Positions 42,208 to 59,885 of a stretch of DNA of 64,000 nucleotides are shown here, piece after piece (position 1 is the stretch's first letter; each line of letters begins with the position of its first letter). The stretch is taken from assembly GCF_900112175.1 (NCBI RefSeq), contig NZ_FOYT01000001.1, positions 1,426,001 to 1,490,000 of the forward strand, read 5' to 3'. The position numbers and the translations under genes are program-made. This DNA comes from Halogeometricum rufum (GTDB lineage: Archaea > Halobacteriota > Halobacteria > Halobacteriales > Haloferacaceae). The notes under the pieces were generated by a model. The model was not told where the DNA came from, made no database searches, and saw only the letters and a list, made by a program, of their open reading frames with translations.

Positions 42208-42479
42208 ACCGGTGGTAGCCCGCCGACCGGTATCGTTATAGACCGCGTGAACCGCCGCGTTCGAGCCCTAACGAGTCGTTTCGGCGGTGCGTTCGTCGGT
42301 TAGCCTTCGGGTTCCGGGGCCCGACTGACACCCGTTCCCAGTTCTCACCAGTGATATCCGAGGCCGACATTTTAAGGCCGTGTTTTCCGTCGATATCGCC
42401 GAGAAAACCGTCCCTCGCGGAACTCCGCCGGCACCGACGAACGACCGAAAGGAGTCACCACCCCGATGCCACAGAACCG

Positions 42480-46911: not shown

Positions 46912-47838
46912 TTAGCGAAGTTGCGGCGGCGGCGACTCCGTCGGTTCGCCGCCCGCCATCGAGGCGAGTTGAGCGACGTAGACGAGGCTGAGGTGGTGGT
47001 CGTCCACGTCGAACTCCGTCGTGTTCGAGACGTTGCCCGAGAAGCCGATGAGATAGTCGTGCAGTTCCGTCTCCACGTCCTCGGTTATCCAGTCGACCGA
47101 GAGGTAGTAGCGAAGCGCGTCCATCGTCCGCTTGAACCCGCCCTTCAGGACGAGGAACTCCAGCCAGTCGAAGACGACGCGTTCGGCGGCGTACTCCTTC
47201 GGGATGGTCGAGAGGTACGGTTTCTCCAGCGACCCGCCCGCGGCGGCCGTCTCGTGGACGAGCAACTGTTCGAGTTGGTTGTGTCGAAGTGCCTCGCCGG
47301 CGCGCCCGCGGGGCCGGTCGCGGACCGGCTTGTCGAAGCGGAACTCGCCGACCTCGTCGAAGTCGTACGCCCGGTCGTCGCGAGAGCGGTCGTAGCCGAG
47401 TTCGTCGAACCCGCCGCGGCGGCCGTCGCGGCCGTCGTCTCGCCCGTCGCCGCGCCGGCCGTCGCCGCCACGTCGGCGCTCTCCCAGTCCGAAGTGGTTG
47501 GCGATGCGGTCCGCGCGGACGACTTCGTCGTGCGCGTCGGCGTGGTCGCTGTACCCCTCGCGGGGGCGACGGAGTCCGTCGTCCCGTCGGGACCGACTCC
47601 GCCGGTCACGGCGGTCGTAGTCGCCGTCGCCGTCGCGGCCGTCGCGTCTGTCACGACTGTCGCGGCCGTCACGGCCGGACCCGTCGCGCGACCGGCGTCC
47701 CTCGTCGCCGCGCCGGCCGCGGTCCTCGTCGTAGCCGCGGCGAGACTCTCGGTCGTTCGTCCCGTCTCGGTCGGAGCGTCGTTCGTCGGCGATGCGCCGG
47801 AGTTCGCGTAGGTCGTAGTTGTCGGGGTCTATCTTCAT
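46912..47838 (-). CDS. ArlD/ArlE-domain protein with Arg/Asp-rich disordered N terminus
   Basis: A 308-residue protein. Residues ~15-190 are extremely rich in Arg, Asp and Gly (runs such as DGRDSRDRRDGRDGD). Residues ~195-300 form an archaellum accessory D/E domain (PYLSTIPKEYAAERVVFDWLEFLVLKGGFKRTMDALRYYLSVDWITEDVETELHDYLIGF). This domain is also in ArlCDE (58479-59885), where it links the motor to chemotaxis. It should therefore act in the cytosolic motility scaffold, but lacks the ArlC part. Its promoter carries one of the shared palindromes. Confidence 0.82.
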   Translation of the reverse strand: MKIDPDNYDLRELRRIADERRSDRDGTNDRESRRGYDEDRGRRGDEGRRSRDGSGRDGRDSRDRRDGRDGDGDYDRRDRRSRSRRDDGLRRPREGYSDHADAHDEVVRADRIANHFGLGERRRGGDGRRGDGRDDGRDGRRGGFDELGYDRSRDDRAYDFDEVGEFRFDKPVRDRPRGRAGEALRHNQLEQLLVHETAAAGGSLEKPYLSTIPKEYAAERVVFDWLEFLVLKGGFKRTMDALRYYLSVDWITEDVETELHDYLIGFSGNVSNTTEFDVDDHHLSLVYVAQLASMAGGEPTESPPPQLR

Positions 47839-47928
47839 TGCCTCACCTCGCTCGCACGGCGTCGACGCCGTACGGCCGTCTCCCGCCTCGGAGACGGGTG
47901 CGTTGGTGCAGAAAAGCCACGGCTGCTT

Positions 47929-47963
47929 GATAAACCTGCCCCCGTGAATATCAGCTAAGATAA
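47929..47963 (-). promoter_or_regulatory. Motility palindrome site 1 plus TATA, before the ArlD/E-like gene
   Basis: On the plus strand ATATCA-GCTA-AGATAA (47948-47963) matches 10 of 12 positions of TTATCA-N4-TGATAA. On the gene strand it is followed, after 13 bases, by TTTATC (47934-47929), a TATA-like hexamer. The start codon is 110 bases away. Confidence 0.5.
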
Positions 47964-50445: not shown

Positions 50446-50479
50446 ATAAAACCACGTGCCGGGAAATCATCAGTGATAA
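50446..50479 (-). promoter_or_regulatory. Motility palindrome site 2 plus TATA, before the chemoreceptor gene
   Basis: AAATCA-TCAG-TGATAA on the plus strand (50464-50479) has one perfect half. On the gene strand it precedes TTTTAT (50451-50446) by 12 bases. That hexamer is 26-31 bases before the ATG at 50420, so the transcript should be leaderless. The palindrome edge is 44 bases from the ATG. Confidence 0.6.
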
Positions 50480-52737: not shown

Positions 52738-52772
52738 TATAAACCCTTCCCCCTCATTATCAGCGCTGATAC
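52738..52772 (-). promoter_or_regulatory. Motility palindrome site 3 plus TATA, before cheY
   Basis: TTATCA-GCGC-TGATAC (52757-52772) contains a perfect 14-base palindrome. On the gene strand TTTATA (52743-52738) follows after 13 bases and is 25-30 bases before the ATG at 52713. The palindrome edge is 44 bases from the ATG, the same as for the chemoreceptor gene. Confidence 0.65.
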
Positions 52773-52818: not shown

Positions 52819-53391
52819 TTACTCGCCGTCGGACGGAGGAATCTGGAGGCCGTCGCCGGCGAGTGCCTCCACCAGGTCGCCGATGGAGTCGTCGAGGGTC
52901 AGGTCGTGTTCCCGGAAGATGGGTGCGAGCACTTTCGTCGGGAACGTCACGTCCGTGTCCGACGCGAGGAGGAGGATGCCGAGCACCTCCGCGGGGGCGG
53001 CGTCGGCGTCGACCTGACTCGCGTACCACTGGGCGATGTCCCCGAAGGCGGTGGCGACGTCGTCGGAGAACAGTTCGCGTTGTTCGATGGCCCCCTCGAA
53101 CGCCGCGGTGAGTGCGAACCCGTAGTCGGCGTCTCGGTCGGAGACGTACCGGGCCGTCTGCTGTTTGGCGAACGTGCCGCGTTCCTCTATCGTTCGGTCC
53201 TCCTCGTCGGCGGGCGCGTCGCCGTCGCCGTCCACGTTCGGCGTCCCGTCGTCGTCCGTGGCGACGACGAACCGGCCCTCGTCCAGTTCGGCGACGCGAC
53301 TGCTGCTGGTGAAATCGAGTTCGTTGGGGCCGACGATTCCCTCCTCGCGTCGTCGCGCGGGATGCTCTCGGGGAGGGTCGTCGGAGGCCAT
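52819..53391 (-). CDS. Haloarchaeal DUF7500-type protein beside cheY
   Basis: A 190-residue protein with the same plan as the one at 41701-42207. The N-terminal motif is GPNELDFTSSSRVAELDEGRFVVATDDD, followed by an acidic linker. Its longer C-terminal part includes AFGDIAQWYASQVDADAAPAEVLGILLLAS and a final helical stretch (VLAPIFREHDLTLDDSIGDLVEALAGDG). No domain of known activity is seen. Position next to cheY suggests a link to taxis, which is inference. The ATG at 53391 is preferred to an upstream in-frame start. Confidence 0.7.
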   Translation of the reverse strand: MASDDPPREHPARRREEGIVGPNELDFTSSSRVAELDEGRFVVATDDDGTPNVDGDGDAPADEEDRTIEERGTFAKQQTARYVSDRDADYGFALTAAFEGAIEQRELFSDDVATAFGDIAQWYASQVDADAAPAEVLGILLLASDTDVTFPTKVLAPIFREHDLTLDDSIGDLVEALAGDGLQIPPSDGE

Positions 53392-53626
53392 GCCGGGAGG
53401 TGGCCGCGGCGAACTAATAAGACCATCGCCCACTCGAACCGGCGGCGACGGTCTCGCGCCCCGACACGACGGCGGAACGGGCCCGGTCTCAGCGGGCGAT
53501 AGCGCTACCAATCTGTCGGCTCTGCGAGGACCTTACGCCCCGATTAACCGCATCTTCGTTCACCCCGATTTCTCACCGAGATAACCAACACATTCACATT
53601 AGCTCACGACAGAAGTAATTCCATCT

Positions 53627-53965
53627 ATGGAGTCTGACAGGACCCTCTCAGCACTGGGCAACGATTACAACCCCGATATATTGCGCGCCGCGGACGAACC
53701 TCACTCGGCACAGGAGTTCAGCGAGATGCTCGACATCCCCATCGCGACGTGCTACCGCCGCATCGAGGAACTCACCGCGGCCGGCCTCCTCGAACTCCAC
53801 GACAGGGTCCTCTCGGACGAACACCGCCGCACCAACGTCTACCGTCGGGAGGTGGACGAGGTGCTCATCCGGTTCGACGGACAGGAGTGCAACGTGCAGG
53901 TCACCGAACGACCGGAGGTCAAGAACAAACTCGACGACGTCTGGCGGCAGATCGCACGGGACTGA
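53627..53965 (+). CDS. Small winged-HTH transcriptional regulator
   Basis: A 112-residue ArsR/IclR-like winged helix. The recognition unit is HSAQEFSEMLDIPIATCYRRIEELTAAGLLELHDRVLSDEHRRTNVYRREVDEV, ending with an acidic-basic helical tail. No ligand or metal site is visible. It lies between the chemotaxis genes and the archaellins, the position expected for a local motility regulator like EarA of other Euryarchaeota, although orthology is not shown. It is a candidate reader of the TTATCA-N4-TGATAA sites. Confidence 0.8.
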   Translation: MESDRTLSALGNDYNPDILRAADEPHSAQEFSEMLDIPIATCYRRIEELTAAGLLELHDRVLSDEHRRTNVYRREVDEVLIRFDGQECNVQVTERPEVKNKLDDVWRQIARD

Positions 53966-54329
53966 CCGCCCGTCGACTGGACACCCGCAGGCTCTCCTCG
54001 TCACCCTCCACAGGCCACGTTCTGCGACTCGGTATCGCCTCACACACTCTGGACTCGCCCTCGTCGGGACTCCGCTGCCGTCGCTCCCGCCGCCCGTCGT
54101 CTGCTCCTTCTGTGCCCCGTTACCACCGCTCTCTTGCGAGTCGTTAACTCCCAGTTAACCGCGGCCACGTGTACGCGTAGAATTTATTCCTCGTCGTGCC
54201 GGGGTTGACTTATCACGAGAGATAATCGGGACCGTAGCGTTATGTAGGTAACCCCGATTGTCCGTATCGTAGGTCTTCTCCTCCGGCGAGGGGGTGGGGG
54301 ACCGAACTGGAGATATACAGAAAAAACCC
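53966..54329. other. Gene-free region with the first archaellin promoter and leader
   Basis: No gene was recognised. The first part is ordinary GC-rich spacer. From 54170 on it becomes AT-rich and holds the palindrome at 54210-54225, a TATA-like hexamer at 54240-54245 and a leader that is repeated almost exactly before the third archaellin gene. Confidence 0.7.
54210..54245 (+). promoter_or_regulatory. Motility palindrome site 4 plus TATA, before the first archaellin
   Basis: TTATCA-CGAG-AGATAA (54210-54225) matches 11 of 12 positions. TTATGT (54240-54245) follows after 14 bases. It lies 85-90 bases before the ATG at 54330, so the transcript should have a leader of about 60-65 bases. Confidence 0.6.
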
Positions 54330-55010
54330 ATGTTCGAAAAATTTGACGCCGACCGCGGTCAGGTCGGTATCGGTACTCTCATCGTGTTCATCGCGATGGT
54401 CCTCGTGGCGGCGATTGCCGCCGGGGTCCTCGTGAACACGGCAGGCTTCCTGCAGGCGACTGCGCAGGACGCCGGGCAGGAAAGTGTTAACAAGGTTACG
54501 AACCGCGTCGACGTCGTCAGCACCCACGGTGTCGTCAACGACACCGGCGACGGTCTCACCGTCGATAGTCTGAACCTGACGGTTCGACTCGCGGCCGGGT
54601 CCGGCAGTGTGTCGCTGGAAGACACCACCATCAAGTACGTCAGCGACTCGACGGCGCGGAATCTCATTTACGATGACGCGTCGAGCGCCGACGGGGAGAG
54701 CCTCGGTAACGTCTCGCAGTGGCAGGACGACACCGGCGTCGGCGGAGAGGGTCTGAACGAAACCGAGTTCACGGCCTACGCGCTCGAAGACGGTGACGAC
54801 ACGTCCTTCCCCGTCCTGAGCGGACAGGGTGACCGCTTCGAACTCGTCATCAACACGTCCGTCGTCGAAGGCGCGGGCCAAGACGGCGTCAGCACCGGCG
54901 ACTCGGTGAAGCTCGAGATCACGAGCCGCTCCGGCGGCTCCAGTCAGGTCATCATGACGATGCCCCAGCAGCTGGCCGGCAAGAACGACAACGACCCCAT
55001 CGCTCTCTAA
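54330..55010 (+). CDS. Archaellin (type A, first copy)
   Basis: A 226-residue filament subunit of the archaellum. The class III signal [10 protein letters not shown] should be cut after Gly10 by the prepilin peptidase PibD/ArlK, leaving the conserved helix [39 protein letters not shown]. The rest is a beta-rich outer domain with N-x-S/T sequons (NLT, NVS, NET, NTS) as N-glycosylation sites and the C-terminal block [24 protein letters not shown] 36 bases upstream is in frame, but the ATG gives the proper signal. It is first in a bicistron with the B-type gene. Confidence 0.95.
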
Positions 55011-55022
55011 CTACTACGTAAA

Positions 55023-55658
55023 ATGTTCGACAAATTCAACAACGACGACCGCGGTCAGGTCGGTATCGGTACGCTCATCGTGTTCATCGCGATGGTCCTC
55101 GTCGCCGCAATCGCTGCGGGGGTCCTCGTGAACACGGCCGGCTTCCTGCAGGCGACTGCGGAGGACGCTGGAGAGGAGAGCGTGAACAAGGTCACGAATC
55201 GCGTCGAAGTGCTGAGCACGCACGGTGTGGTCGGCACGGAGCAGGACATCGACAACATCACGATGACGGTCCGCCTCGCGGCCGGGTCCAGCAGCGTGGA
55301 CATGAACGAGACGTCGATAAAGTACCTCAGCGCGGGGAACGTGACGACGCTCACCAACACCACCAACCTGGACGGCAACGGTGACCCCATCTCCTCCGAG
55401 AACACGTTCGCGCTGAACGAGGTCACCGACGACGACGGGTCGTTCGGCGTGCTCAACAGCATGAACGACCGCTACGAGGTGGAGGTCAACACGTCCGCCA
55501 TCGAGGGTAGCAACGACGCGAACCTCGGCGGCGGTCTCACCACCGGTGAACAGGTGACGTTCGAGATAACGAGTCGGACGGGTGGCACCACGCAGGTCAT
55601 CCTGACGATGCCCCAGCAACTCGCCGGCAAGGAACCGGGCGACCCGGTCGAACTCTAA
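55023..55658 (+). CDS. Archaellin (type B, first copy)
   Basis: A 211-residue archaellin with signal [11 protein letters not shown] (cleaved after Gly11), the same helical stem as type A and a different outer domain ([40 protein letters not shown]...). It has several sequons and the C-terminal block [20 protein letters not shown]. It starts 12 bases after the type A stop, so both are made from one message. Filaments with two or more archaellins are common in haloarchaea. Confidence 0.95.
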
Positions 55659-55702
55659 GTTCGCCGCCGCTCCGAATCGCGCTTTCGATTCATTCCTTTT
55701 CG

Positions 55703-55738
55703 TTATCAGTTCTAATAACTAGGACCGTAGCGTTATGT
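55703..55738 (+). promoter_or_regulatory. Motility palindrome site 5 plus TATA, before the third archaellin
   Basis: TTATCA-GTTC-TAATAA (55703-55718) matches 11 of 12 positions, and TTATGT (55733-55738) follows after exactly 14 bases, as at site 4. The flanking bases differ from site 4, so palindrome and spacing have been kept while the surroundings changed. Confidence 0.6.
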
Positions 55739-55816
55739 AGGTCTGCCTGATTGTCCGTATCGTAGGTCTTCTCCTCCGACGAGGGGGTGGGGGACCGAAC
55801 TGGAGATACACAACCC

Positions 55817-56500
55817 ATGTTCGAAAAATTTGACGCCGACCGCGGTCAGGTCGGTATCGGTACGCTCATCGTGTTCATCGCGATGGTCCTCGTCGCTGCG
55901 ATCGCTGCGGGGGTCCTCGTGAACACGGCCGGCTTCCTGCAGGCGACTGCGCAGGACGCCGGACAGGAAAGCGTCAACAAGGTCACGAACCGCGTTGACG
56001 TCGTCAGCACGCACGGCATCGTCAACGACACCGGTGACGGTCTCACCGTCGATAGCCTGAACCTCACGGTTCGGCTCGCGGCGGGGTCCGGCAGCGTGTC
56101 GTTGGAAGACACGACCATCAAGTACGTCAGCGACTCGACGGCGCGTAACCTCGTCTACGACAACGCGACGGCGAACGCCGACGGGACGGCCCTCGGCAAC
56201 GTCAGCAAGTTCGACGGCGAAGTCTACAACAGCAACGACGGTCTGAACGAGTCCGAGTACGCCGCGTACGCGCTCGAAGACGGGACGGACACCTCCTTCC
56301 CCGTCCTGAGCGGACAGGCGGACCGCTACGAGATCGTCATCAACACGTCCGTCGTCGAGGGCGCGGGCCAAGATGGCGTGGGCACGGGCGACTCGGTCAA
56401 GCTCGAAGTCACGAGCCGTTCCGGCGGTTCGACGCAGGTCATCATGACGATGCCCCAGCAACTCGCCGGCAAGAACGACAACGACCCCATCGCTCTCTAA
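55817..56500 (+). CDS. Archaellin (type A, second copy)
   Basis: A 227-residue archaellin nearly identical to the product of 54330-55010 in the signal ([10 protein letters not shown]), stem helix and C-terminal block. The difference is concentrated in a central loop of about 35 residues ([21 protein letters not shown]... here), the part expected to face outward. It carries N-x-S/T sequons (NLT, NAT, NVS, NES, NTS). An in-frame upstream GTG gives a 10-residue extension here against 12 in copy 1. Confidence 0.95.
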
Positions 56501-56512
56501 GGAGTGAGAACC

Positions 56513-57148
56513 ATGTTCGACAACTTCAACGACGACGACCGCGGTCAGGTCGGTATCGGTACGCTCATCGTGTTCATCGCGATGGTTCTCGTCGCCGCGA
56601 TCGCGGCGGGCGTCCTCGTGAACACGGCCGGCTTTCTGCAGGCGACTGCCGAAGACGCCGGGCAGGAGAGCGTGAACAAGGTGACGAACCGCGTGGAGGT
56701 GCTGAACACCCACGGCGTGGTCGGCGCGGAACAGGACATCGACAACATCACCATGACCATCCGCCTGGCCGCCGGGTCCAGCAGCGTGGACATGAACGAG
56801 ACGTCGATAAAGTACCTCAGCGGAGGGAACGTGACGACGCTCACGAACTCCACGAATCTGGACGGCGACGGTGACGCCATCTCCTCGGAACGCACGTTCG
56901 CGCTCTACAAAGTGACCGACGACGACGGATCGTTCGGCGTGCTCAACAGCATGAACGACCGCTACGAGGTCGAAATCAACACGTCCGCCATCGAGGGCAG
57001 CAACGACGCGAACCTCGGCGGCGGCCTCACCACCGGCGAACAGGTGACGCTCGAGATGACGAGTCGGACGGGCGGCACCACGCAGGTCATCCTGACGATG
57101 CCCCAGCAACTCGCCGGTCGGAACCCGGGCGACCCGGTCGAACTCTAA
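56513..57148 (+). CDS. Archaellin (type B, second copy)
   Basis: A 211-residue archaellin very like the product of 55023-55658, with signal [11 protein letters not shown] and end [20 protein letters not shown]. Differences are scattered single substitutions, including the segment [17 protein letters not shown] Shine-Dalgarno GGAG lies about 10 bases before the ATG, directly after the type A stop. It is the last archaellin. The next gene is convergent. Confidence 0.95.
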
Positions 57149-57427
57149 GTTCGCCGACTCGCTCGACTCACCGTTCGGCACCCCTTCATTTCTGAGACAT
57201 CCCGCCCCCGAGCGGCGGCGCCGTCTCGACGTGACAGATGGCGCGTCCGGCGGCGACACCGCCGTCGCTGCACCGTTCGACGGTTCGAGAGCGGGAGGAC
57301 GACGAGTGCGCCGTGAGAATCGAGGCCCGGGAGCGGAGCGTCGGAGAGACGCGGAAACGTCGGAGAGAGTTCGACGCGCAGAGGAGGAGACGAAGAGAGC
57401 GGTGCCGAGTCGAGAGCGGTCGAGCGC

Positions 57428-58174
57428 CTACTCCAGGTCGCCTTCTTCGCCGAACCACGGCGGCGACTCCCCGACCATCGAGAAGCCCGCCGCCTGTTCG
57501 TATATCTGGATGCCCCCGTCGTTTATCTCGAGAGGGAACATCGAGTTCTTGATGGACTGTTTGCGCATCTTCGCCACCCAGACGTAGCGGTTGCTCGTCG
57601 CGCCGGCGGGGCTCTGTATCAGGTAGATGTTCCCGTCGGTGAGGAAGTTCTCCAGCCCGATCTCCGTCTCGGGGAAGATGGCCGACTGCTCGGTCGTCAG
57701 CAGCGACGTCAGGTCGCTGTCCTTCAGGATGTCGATGAACTTCAGCAGGTACTGTCGCTGCTCTTTCTCGTCGTCGAAGAACAGTTGGAACATGGTCAGC
57801 GAGTCGAGGACGAGTCGATCGTACGACGTGTCCTGCAGGTCGCCGAGGATGCGGTCGAGCGTCGAGGAGAAGTCGCCGTCGCGGAGCAGCGCACGCTTGT
57901 CGTACACTTTGATCTTCCCCTCCTCGACGTACTCGGACCAGCGGTCGAAGCCGATGGACTCCGCCGCCTCCTGGATGTCGTCTTCGGCTTCCTCGAAGGT
58001 GAGGTAGATGCCCCCTTCGTCGTACTTGTCCACGCCGTTGTAGAGATACTGCAGACCGAGGATACTCTTCCCCGTCCCGGGGTTGCCGCTGATGAGTACC
58101 GCGGCGTTCTTGACGATGCCGCCGTTGAGGATGGAGTCGAGGCCTTCGACTCCGGTTTTTACGAACTCTGGCAT
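57428..58174 (-). CDS. KaiC-like/RecA-superfamily ATPase (ArlH paralogue)
   Basis: A 248-residue single KaiC domain. The N terminus VKTGVEGLDSILNGGIVKNAAVLISGNPGTGKSILGLQYL has Walker A at residues 30-38, followed by EGGIYLTFEEAEDDIQ and the Walker B-type DRLVLDSLTMFQLFF. ArlH in the same locus (60786) is related in fold but much diverged. Proteins of this type often act in signalling or gene regulation through ATP-dependent oligomers. It is transcribed against the archaellins and away from arlCDE, suggesting a regulatory role. The exact role is unknown. Confidence 0.85.
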   Translation of the reverse strand: MPEFVKTGVEGLDSILNGGIVKNAAVLISGNPGTGKSILGLQYLYNGVDKYDEGGIYLTFEEAEDDIQEAAESIGFDRWSEYVEEGKIKVYDKRALLRDGDFSSTLDRILGDLQDTSYDRLVLDSLTMFQLFFDDEKEQRQYLLKFIDILKDSDLTSLLTTEQSAIFPETEIGLENFLTDGNIYLIQSPAGATSNRYVWVAKMRKQSIKNSMFPLEINDGGIQIYEQAAGFSMVGESPPWFGEEGDLE

Positions 58175-58478
58175 AGATGATGACCCTCTGTATAGGCTAT
58201 CGGTACGCTCATCAGTCTTCCATCCGGTTAATTCTTCTCACACGCCCTGAGCCGTTCGTTGACCCGAGAACGAGGTGTCGTGATAGCGTATCACGGCTGA
58301 TAATTTGGTGGCAACATTCTTGTATTGATGACTGTATCGTTGAGTCAATGCTACCTGATTCCCCGACGTCGGAGTGCCCATCCGACCGGGTGTCGGCGCG
58401 ACACCGGAGTGAGGTCTGTGTGTCGTCGTCGGCCAGTGAGCGGAGCCAGTGGGCCCGCACGCGACGGAGGCGAGACGG
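58175..58478. other. Divergent promoter region between the KaiC-like gene and arlCDE
   Basis: No gene was recognised. The region holds the palindrome at 58288-58303, a TTGTAT at 58320-58325 and, near the end, a GGTGTCGG/CACC hairpin and a GGAGG ribosome-binding site (58466-58470) before the arlCDE ATG at 58479. Confidence 0.65.
58288..58325 (+). promoter_or_regulatory. Motility palindrome site 6, before arlCDE and the KaiC-like gene
   Basis: GTATCA-CGGC-TGATAA (58288-58303) matches 11 of 12 positions. On the plus strand TTGTAT follows after 16 bases, a weaker TATA match than in the other sites. On the minus strand no good TATA word lies at the same distance. Confidence 0.5.
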
Positions 58479-59885
58479 ATGGGAATGATGGACTGGATAG
58501 ACGGGGAAGACGAAGACGCGCGGTCCGACGAAGAGGGGACCGGCCTCGCGACTGACGGTCTCGGCTTCGACGAGGACCTCGACGACTTCGGAGACGACTT
58601 CGGCGACTTCGACGACGACGACATGGAGGGTTTCGACGACGAAGACGCCGACTTCGGCGGCGGCGGCGGAGGTGGCGGCGTCGACCCCGACACGGTCGCC
58701 GAACTGGAAGACCGCGTCTCCGACCTCGAGAACGAGGTCAGCGCCACGTCCTCCAGCGTCAACACGGTCCGCGAGGAGAACAAACAGATCGGCGAAACCG
58801 TCGAAGAACTCGACGACACGGTCCGCAAACTCCTCGACATCTACGAGATGGTGACTCGCGGCATCAACCCGTTCGTGGACGACGCCCGCGAGATGGGCGG
58901 ACTGGAGGGCGGCGGTTCGTTCGGCCTGTTCGACGCCGAGGAGGAGGAAGAAGAACACCTCGACCCCGACGTCGCGTCCGCGGACGCCGAGAGCTTCTTC
59001 GACGAGGACTTCGGCGAACTCGACGCCGACGCCGAAGCCGAGGAGGCCGAGTTGGCCGCCGAAGACGAACTCGCCGAGAACGAGGCCGAGGACCCGACAG
59101 AGGAGATTCTCGGCGACGAGGACCCGGTCGTCGAGGACGACGAGGACGACGCCGGCGGCGGGTCGAGTTTCGACGACCTCAAAGCCGAGTACGAGGAGGG
59201 CGAGGGTTGGGAAGAGGGCGAAGCGGAGGACGTCGACGACGGCCCCCTCGACGCGGACGACCTGGCGGTCGAGGACGACGACGTACCGACGACCGACGGA
59301 CTCGTCGGCGAGGAGGAAGAAACGGACGAAGAGGACGACGCGGCCGAAGACGGCATCGACGACGTCGAGGAGGAACTCGACGCGGCCGACGAGGACCCGG
59401 ACGCGGCGGCCGAACCGGACGCGGCGACCGAACCGGACACGGCGACCGAACCGGACGACACGGGGTCGTTCGAGTTCAGCGAACCGACGACCGAGACGGC
59501 GTCTCCGACGGACCGGGAGACGGAACAGTCGGAGGCGGAGGCCGACGTCTACCTCGCCACCCTGCCCGCGAGTTACGTCGCGGAGTCGGTGGCGCTGGAG
59601 TGGACCCGGTTCCTCGTCTCGGTCGGCGGCGCAATCGGCGCGGCGCGGGCGCTCCGACAGTACCGCGAACAGGAGTGGATCTCCCGCACCGTCGAGAGAC
59701 AGATGAACGCGCACGTGCGCAACGCCGCCGCCTCCACGACGGCCGAGGAGCCGCGTGACCTCCGCGTCGAACACCACAAAGAGAGCCTCACGTACGTCAG
59801 CCGACTCGCGGGCGACGTCGCCGAGGCGCGTCTGCTCGAAGAGCTGTCGCACCGAGGAGGGGGTCACCGTGGGATTCGGCGTTAG
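58479..59885 (+). CDS. arlCDE: Archaellum accessory fusion protein ArlCDE
   Basis: A 468-residue cytosolic protein joining two archaellum modules. An acidic start leads to an ArlC-type coiled coil at about residues 67-137 (ELEDRVSDLENEVS...GETVEELDDTVRKLLDIYEMVTRGINPFVDD). A very acidic linker of about 220 residues follows, then an ArlD/E domain at about 358-455 (YLATLPASYVAESVALEWTRFLVSVGGAIGAARALRQYREQEWI). In the family it forms the cytosolic ring that receives CheY-P signals via adaptors. It leads the arl operon, and a GGAGG site precedes the ATG. Confidence 0.9.
   Translation: MGMMDWIDGEDEDARSDEEGTGLATDGLGFDEDLDDFGDDFGDFDDDDMEGFDDEDADFGGGGGGGGVDPDTVAELEDRVSDLENEVSATSSSVNTVREENKQIGETVEELDDTVRKLLDIYEMVTRGINPFVDDAREMGGLEGGGSFGLFDAEEEEEEHLDPDVASADAESFFDEDFGELDADAEAEEAELAAEDELAENEAEDPTEEILGDEDPVVEDDEDDAGGGSSFDDLKAEYEEGEGWEEGEAEDVDDGPLDADDLAVEDDDVPTTDGLVGEEEETDEEDDAAEDGIDDVEEELDAADEDPDAAAEPDAATEPDTATEPDDTGSFEFSEPTTETASPTDRETEQSEAEADVYLATLPASYVAESVALEWTRFLVSVGGAIGAARALRQYREQEWISRTVERQMNAHVRNAAASTTAEEPRDLRVEHHKESLTYVSRLAGDVAEARLLEELSHRGGGHRGIRR

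Follow-up and report, generated by a model that had tools for sequence, protein, structure and literature searches.

A tandemly duplicated archaellin transcription unit in Halogeometricum rufum with CsmR-type operators and a predicted hairpin at the 5' end of its leaders

In Halogeometricum rufum two complete archaellin operons lie side by side. The stretch analysed here, referred to as the window, comprises 64,000 nucleotides (nt) at positions 1426001-1490000 of a 1.87-Mb contig (NZ_FOYT01000001.1) in a genome of 4.19 Mb that is 99.8% complete (G000; the other G-numbers denote genomes of relatives). A helix-turn-helix gene (53627-53965, +) is followed by the archaellin genes A1, B1, A2 and B2 and then by a KaiC-like gene on the opposite strand (57428-58174, -). 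The archaellin genes form two complete, adjacent A+B units in tandem (54211-55658 and 55704-57148). All four are intact and match PF01917 (E 2.7e-33, 1.5e-35, 1.8e-32 and 6.2e-36 for A1, B1, A2 and B2, respectively); A and B proteins are about 62% identical. The reading that we consider probable is that a complete motility transcription unit, consisting of CsmR operator, core promoter, hairpin leader, A, B and 3' end, was duplicated in tandem, and that the net effect would be more archaellin and a mixed outer surface. The features of the locus are:

53627-53965, + strand: likely csmR orthologue, helix-turn-helix regulator of 112 amino acids (PF12840 HTH_20, E 6.9e-9)
54211-54224, no strand: CsmR-type box of unit 1, TATCACGAGAGATA, 9/10 to TATCA(N4)TGATA
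54240-54247, + strand: TATA box of unit 1, TTATGTAG, 15 nt past the CsmR-type box
54270-54329, + strand: predicted 5' leader of unit 1, 60 nt, with the start site placed at TATA+30
54272-54303, + strand: 5'-terminal hairpin of the unit 1 leader (predicted fold)
54330-55010, + strand: archaellin A1 (arlA1-like), 226 amino acids, PF01917
55023-55658, + strand: archaellin B1 (arlA2-like), 211 amino acids, PF01917
55659-55703, + strand: 3' flank of unit 1, similar to the 3' flank of B genes in congeners; abuts the CsmR box of unit 2
55704-55717, no strand: CsmR-type box of unit 2, TATCAGTTCTAATA, 9/10 to TATCA(N4)TGATA
55733-55740, + strand: TATA box of unit 2, TTATGTAG, 15 nt past the CsmR-type box
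55763-55816, + strand: predicted 5' leader of unit 2, 54 nt
55765-55796, + strand: predicted 5'-terminal hairpin of the unit 2 leader, one base (in the loop) unlike unit 1
55817-56500, + strand: archaellin A2, 227 amino acids, PF01917
56513-57148, + strand: archaellin B2, 211 amino acids, PF01917
57428-58174, - strand: cirA orthologue (KaiC-like ATPase, counter-regulator in Haloferax; PF06745, E 6e-51)

The homology between the two units runs from the palindrome around the box to shortly past the B stop codon. No duplicated sequence was found farther upstream in the alignment of unit 1 with unit 2; over the 70 nt preceding the box, 34 of 54 aligned positions are different, i.e. these sequences are unrelated. 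The 45 nt that follow B1 are similar to the sequence downstream of B in the congeners and thus are probably the ancestral 3' untranslated region (UTR). The copied piece spans operator to 3' end, and thus a whole transcription unit was duplicated. A tandem duplication of a two-archaellin operon with its promoter and leader had been proposed in a first-pass annotation of this DNA, and the alignment of the units, the identity of the leaders and the intact genes bear it out. Its description of the leaders as nearly identical over about 95 bases was accurate (91% identity over 98 nt without gaps, 54222-54319 and 55715-55812), as was the equal spacing of palindrome and TATA box: the palindromes (54210-54225 and 55703-55718) each end 14 nt before TTATGTAG (54240 and 55733). 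Gene order, coordinates, intact genes, spacing, divergence, the CsmR and CirA orthologues, the single pair in congeners and the recurrence described below were all taken from the sequence.

The duplication is old. Silent sites differ by 25-29% between the copies, which is compatible neither with a recent event nor with an assembly artefact. The A copies are 87.6% identical in amino acids (silent divergence dS 0.36, non-silent divergence dN 0.088) and the B copies 91.5% (dS 0.30, dN 0.044). In G000 the dS between copies is somewhat smaller than that to the nearest congener G001 (0.42 and 0.48 for A, 0.46 and 0.44 for B), which fits a duplication after the split from G001 or an older one with some homogenisation. 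That the second unit was produced by the assembly has a negligible probability. Tandem repeats do break assemblies of relatives, but the silent and loop differences between the copies, and the position of the site inside a 1.87-Mb contig, speak against it here. Near-identical leaders were considered as proof of a recent duplication and rejected, as other species are equally close: there are 6 differences in 95 sites between the two units and 6 in 93 between unit 1 and G001. Their likeness is thus due to constraint.

Four congeners have a single A-B pair at the locus and five archaellin-family genes each, versus seven in G000. Absence of the duplication from related species, combined with an assembly artefact, had been named as what would overturn the first-pass interpretation; the first part was indeed found in these congeners, yet the silent divergence excludes the second. 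A match to B1 was present in at least 143 of the 167 genomes of the family, one genome per species, that were scanned for the A-B-A-B arrangement. The named matches of the B1-type protein are four Haloferax species (75-77% identical). The arrangement occurs in at least G000, G090, G093 and G084, the last three from another genus of the family; these four are a lower bound, the tandem check having covered the genera with less distant archaellins. As a separate observation, tandem archaellin operons seem to break short-read assemblies: G084 has a run of N in the first B gene (L052), and in G085 two contigs end inside the repeat (L055/L056). Such duplications are therefore likely undercounted.

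Trees were built from 37 A and 38 B proteins. In both trees the copies from units 1 and 2 are sisters to the exclusion of relatives, for G000 (99/97 in A, 99/94 in B) as well as for G090 (99/96 in A, 98/94 in B). This indicates at least two separate events or repeated homogenisation, and from the sequences the A-B-A-B order appears to have arisen independently at least once in the other genus. The trees also bear on the idea that unit 2 did not arise by duplication but came from another haloarchaeon. The G000 B genes are not firmly grouped with the B genes of congeners, as such a transfer would allow, but the two units are mutual sisters in both trees and their leaders and 3' flanks match, which makes an acquisition very improbable. 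Unlike the B genes, the A genes of G000 do group with those of the congeners; recombination or transfer in B is possible.

The differences between the copies are distributed differently in A and B. In A, 27.2 of the 42.5 non-silent differences fall within alignment columns 121-150, where the proportion of differing non-silent sites (pN) is 0.39, versus 0-0.08 in other windows. The claim that the A copies are nearly identical save for a central loop thus applies to the protein; it does not apply to the DNA, where 29% of silent sites differ along the whole gene. The changes in B are scattered without clustering, as had been described. In a predicted structure of A1 the variable stretch corresponds to a loop (roughly residues 115-145) that joins two outer-domain strands; confidence inside the loop is low, and the model agrees with an outer loop at that low confidence. 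The pN in the loop window is high between the A copies of all four A-B-A-B genomes (0.39, 0.30, 0.26 and 0.34). An N-glycosylation sequon at about residue 116 is missing from A1 and kept in A2 and in the single A of the four congeners; it is missing from the first-unit A in three of the four A-B-A-B genomes (L051 and L052 included, G090 not).

These data can also be explained by gene dosage alone, a second unit providing more of the same filament and the loop differences being ordinary drift. We give this somewhat less than an even chance. Promoter and leader are the same in both units, both copies are under strong purifying selection, species, too, differ most in the loop, and the B copies hardly differ (pN 0.043). 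Against dosage alone, two divergent copies have both been retained intact, and the protein difference between the A copies (pN 0.083 at dS 0.36) exceeds that of two congener pairs at similar silent distance (G003/G004, 0.048 at 0.40; G001/G003, 0.045 at 0.50), although the pair G062/G063 (0.120 at 0.41) does not fit this pattern.

The first-pass annotation had further suggested that the repeat allows recombination between copies and variation of the loop. The first half is supported by conversion of the gene core in the relatives G093 and G084, while the second found no support, as there was no sign of loop shuffling. Each leader of G093 is orthologous to that of the equivalent unit in G084 (13% different between second units and 23% between first units, versus 34-38% between the units within a genome). 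The A genes are closer within a genome (proportion of differing silent sites, pS, 0.276 and 0.204) than between the species (0.42-0.48), and in G093 A1 and A2 have no silent difference in alignment columns 1-60. Thus in these two genomes gene conversion homogenises the core of the filament subunit but not the loop or the leader. Silent differences between copies in the loop window are as large (pS 0.77 and 0.63 within G093 and G084) as between species (0.61-0.75). A runs test gave further indications of conversion in G090 (A1/A2 p 0.0035 with a run of 15 silent codons; B1/B2 p 0.021) and G093 (A1/A2 p 0.039). In the window, where it used 55 silent polymorphic codons in six comparisons, the lowest values were p 0.007 for A1/B2 and p 0.08 for B1/A2, which is weak after six comparisons.

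A contingency locus, in which recombination shuffles loops to alter the filament surface, e. g. against viruses, is improbable on these grounds. The loop is flanked by long near-identical stretches and relatives do carry conversion tracts (G090, G093 and G084), which would favour such a system. But no tract carrying the variable loop was found, the loop lying outside the homogenised parts in G093 and G084, so that conversion leaves it apart and does not move it. No silent or promoterless donor cassettes were found either, both units of the window being intact and promoter-bearing like every other copy, and A1 and A2 of the window gave no tract at all.

With respect to regulation, the locus resembles one in Haloferax volcanii. 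CsmR (HVO_1209), which is encoded upstream of arlA1-arlA2, binds TATCA(N4)TGATA upstream of the B recognition element and TATA box (Nussbaum et al. 2026, PMC13286277). The helix-turn-helix protein of the window has an 88-96% identical counterpart at the equivalent position in 10 of the 11 relatives' loci searched (93-96% in four congeners, 88-93% in four Haloferax loci); at the G071 locus no csmR-like gene was found. CirA has a 92-96% identical counterpart in 10 of the 11 as well. We therefore regard the 112-residue protein as the likely CsmR orthologue because of place and family, the comparison being with same-place proteins and not with HVO_1209 itself. In both units 9 of 10 positions agree with the operator consensus and the TATA box lies 15 nt downstream; thus the palindrome noticed earlier fits a CsmR-type operator. 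Nine such boxes (up to two mismatches) are present in the window versus 1.74 expected, a number reached in none of 100 shuffles; two of them (54554 and 56041) are located within A genes and probably arose by chance. The combination of box, spacing and TATA box was matched 17 times in the whole genome versus 0 for a reversed control, and at one mismatch such a match occurs once or more in 195 of the 392 genomes of the order. Other boxes of this type, at 52758-52771, 50465-50478, 58289-58302 and 42343-42356, stand beside cheY, a methyl-accepting transducer gene, an arlCE-like gene and a sensor-like gene.

The shared operator bears on a further proposal, that the units are strict ecoparalogues serving different salinities or temperatures. 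There is a precedent in FlaB and FlaA2 of Haloarcula marismortui (PMC6528647), each unit has its own promoter, and outer loop and sequon have diverged. However, promoters and leaders are nearly the same, which leaves no handle for differential transcription, and the Haloarcula genes sit on different replicons. We consider this proposal unlikely.

Several genes of G000 with a CsmR-type promoter are leaderless and have their ATG at TATA+29 to +31; order-wide, the ATG lies at TATA+29 or +30 in 22 of 22 arlCE-like genes of family f17 with the same operator. This places the start of the archaellin mRNA near TATA+30. The cheY gene of the window is also leaderless, with the ATG at TATA+29. In all 39 Haloferacaceae archaellin leaders (32 distinct; the TATA box of six was located by eye, with a spacing of 15 nt in all six) a folded stem of -11.3 to -21.7 kcal/mol begins no more than 2 nt from the predicted start. 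The mean folding energy of 36-nt windows was -18.0 at offsets +30 and +32 and -3.7 to -9.6 from -80 to +20, and in 31 of the 39 leaders the window of lowest energy begins at +30 to +32. The sequence of the Haloferax leader is unlike that of the others while the position of its hairpin is the same. A wider sample of the order was drawn from other genera and three other families. It was non-random, being the best protein matches in f4, f7, f17 and chosen Haloferacaceae genera, and 53 of 103 candidate leaders (48 loci) were kept at a box and TATA score of at least 12/16 and a TATA-to-ATG distance of at least 36 nt; few leaders of f7 reached that score. A stem of at least 6 bp starts at TATA+28 or +30 in 32 of these 53 leaders versus 0-15 at offsets from -40 to +24, with largely different sequences. 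Folding z-scores of single leaders are modest (-1.8 and -2.1 in the window, -0.6 in G001, -0.5 in unit 1 of G084, +0.3 in G094).

The base pairs of the predicted stem were compared as well. In an alignment of 21 Haloferacaceae leaders (the genus of the window, the neighbouring g15, and g19; Haloferax excluded) 90.8% of the cells pair, compared with 42-72% after sliding of one arm; the covariation is weak, as its value was reached in 42 of 500 shuffles. Order-wide, covariation was above all 500 shuffles, with one pair being U-A in eight and C-G in six sequences; the 16 sequences aligned were hand-picked from 20, leaving out L143, L145, L202 and L206, whose pairs depart from the G-Y-C-Y-G pattern, so that the selection favours structure. 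Of a set of 49 leaders, 32 had a stem and 20 remained after removal of similar 5' arms; these 20 non-redundant hairpins, selected for having a stem, gave -14.3 kcal/mol natively and -7.8 kcal/mol with swapped arms. We rate the covariation as moderate. A stem locked at the predicted 5' end of the mRNA is well supported by the sequence comparisons, from which its existence in the RNA and its function are inferred. The leader as a member of a known RNA family was rejected, as Rfam 15 gave no match at the gathering score in 53000-58500; a plasmid search found no such leader. In the open-access literature, to which the search was confined (subscription papers and supplements were outside its scope), we found no published description of an archaellin leader hairpin. 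The main text of PMC13286277, in the part available, yielded no mention of one and does not contain the word UTR. The hairpin leader, which seems to be widespread and so far undescribed, is possibly new.

Similar structures precede other motility genes. In seven genomes (two of the same genus, G000 included, two of g15 and one each of Haloferax, g26 and g19; L236-L242) the cheW gene with a CsmR-type box has a leader, and every such leader contains, no more than about 6 nt from its predicted 5' end, a hairpin with an unrelated sequence. For most of the remaining genera the cheW start was found at TATA+24 to +34, with no leader of this kind; a few loci are ambiguous. The arlCE-like gene at 46912-47838 (-) has a box at 47949-47962, and a leader at about 47839-47904 (TATA to ATG 95 nt), the predicted 5' end of which folds into a strong hairpin. 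A possible interpretation, to which we would give an even chance, is that leadered messages of the CsmR regulon (archaellin operon, cheW, probably the arlCE-like gene) start with a stem-loop exactly at the 5' end. This would be a regulon-wide RNA cap, replaceable in sequence and fixed in place, which would be copied along whenever the archaellin operon is duplicated.

Most haloarchaeal messages are leaderless, and the translation of leadered ones is unsettled. As a first guess, the hairpin would protect the 5' end of the abundant archaellin message and stabilise it; as a second guess, it would block the loading of ribosomes there as on a leaderless mRNA. In H.volcanii a stabilised stem-loop in the 5' UTR of an hp transcript gave less translation and a destabilised one more (PMC2636863), and haloarchaea translate leaderless messages with higher efficiency than leadered ones (PMC8241225). 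A third guess, by analogy, is that the hairpin could be a target of a small RNA: deletion of sRNA63 in H.volcanii raised the flgA1 and flgA2 transcripts 16-fold (PMC3956466).

The duplication of the complete unit would then work as follows. CsmR would bind both operators, and each unit would give a bicistronic mRNA of about 1.4 kb with a leader of 54-60 nt, on which B may be translated by reinitiation across the gap of 12 nt. The filament would hold two versions of the A/B pair. Purifying selection, with conversion where this could be tested in relatives, would keep core and ends of the subunits alike, leaving the outer loop of A free to diverge.

Several points weigh against this explanation. 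The box of unit 2 is off consensus in the right half (TAATA) and that of unit 1 by one base (AGATA). In Haloferax, deletion of CsmR raised archaellin transcripts yet abolished motility (PMC13286277), a paradoxical role that leaves the direction of control unsettled. No A1/A2 conversion tract was detected in the window (p 0.995). Loss of the sequon from the first unit in three of four genomes is too few cases to mean much. The arm swap within Haloferacaceae was weak, native arms exceeding 95% of foreign ones in only 11 of 32 leaders, which counts against the hairpin and is explained by the G-rich 3' arms of the window's genus pairing with nearly any pyrimidine-rich arm. Finally, for this organism the explanation is based on genomic data, and expression, binding and start sites are predictions.

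Duplicated archaellin operons as such are known. Additional ones were published for 9 of 47 Halorubrum species (Pyatibratov et al. 2020, PMC7349177), where, as here, a two-archaellin operon is present twice. FlaB1 and FlaB2 are, however, about 36-45% identical there compared with about 62% for A and B here, and operator and leader are not described in the part of that source available. The arlA1-arlA2 locus of H.volcanii (PMC13286277) shares the order csmR, A, B, cirA and the CsmR-type operator upstream of the TATA box, the orthologues of Haloferax loci being 88-93% identical to those of the window, but it has one A-B pair instead of two. Like the window, Haloarcula marismortui (PMC6528647) has more than one archaellin with separate promoters; there the copies lie on chromosome and plasmid, salt-dependent behaviour was tested and no tandem operon is present. 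For the alternating two-subunit archaellum of Methanocaldococcus villosus (PMC8821640) the filament composition is established, whereas here it is a prediction. As it is built from two archaellins of one operon, such an archaellum explains why A and B would be copied jointly.

Taken by itself, the duplication is an ordinary though clear example of filament genes being amplified as an entire transcription unit. In A-B-A-B genomes of the family, conversion can be seen to homogenise the subunit core with the outer loop left apart. The larger point is the leader, with a predicted position-locked 5' hairpin on leadered motility messages that is absent where cheW is leaderless. If true, this hairpin would provide RNA stability or translation with a simple element that is open to direct testing, alongside CsmR at the same promoters. 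A fifth, distant archaellin gene lies on the second contig of the genome (L005/L048), and each congener also has one outside the locus.

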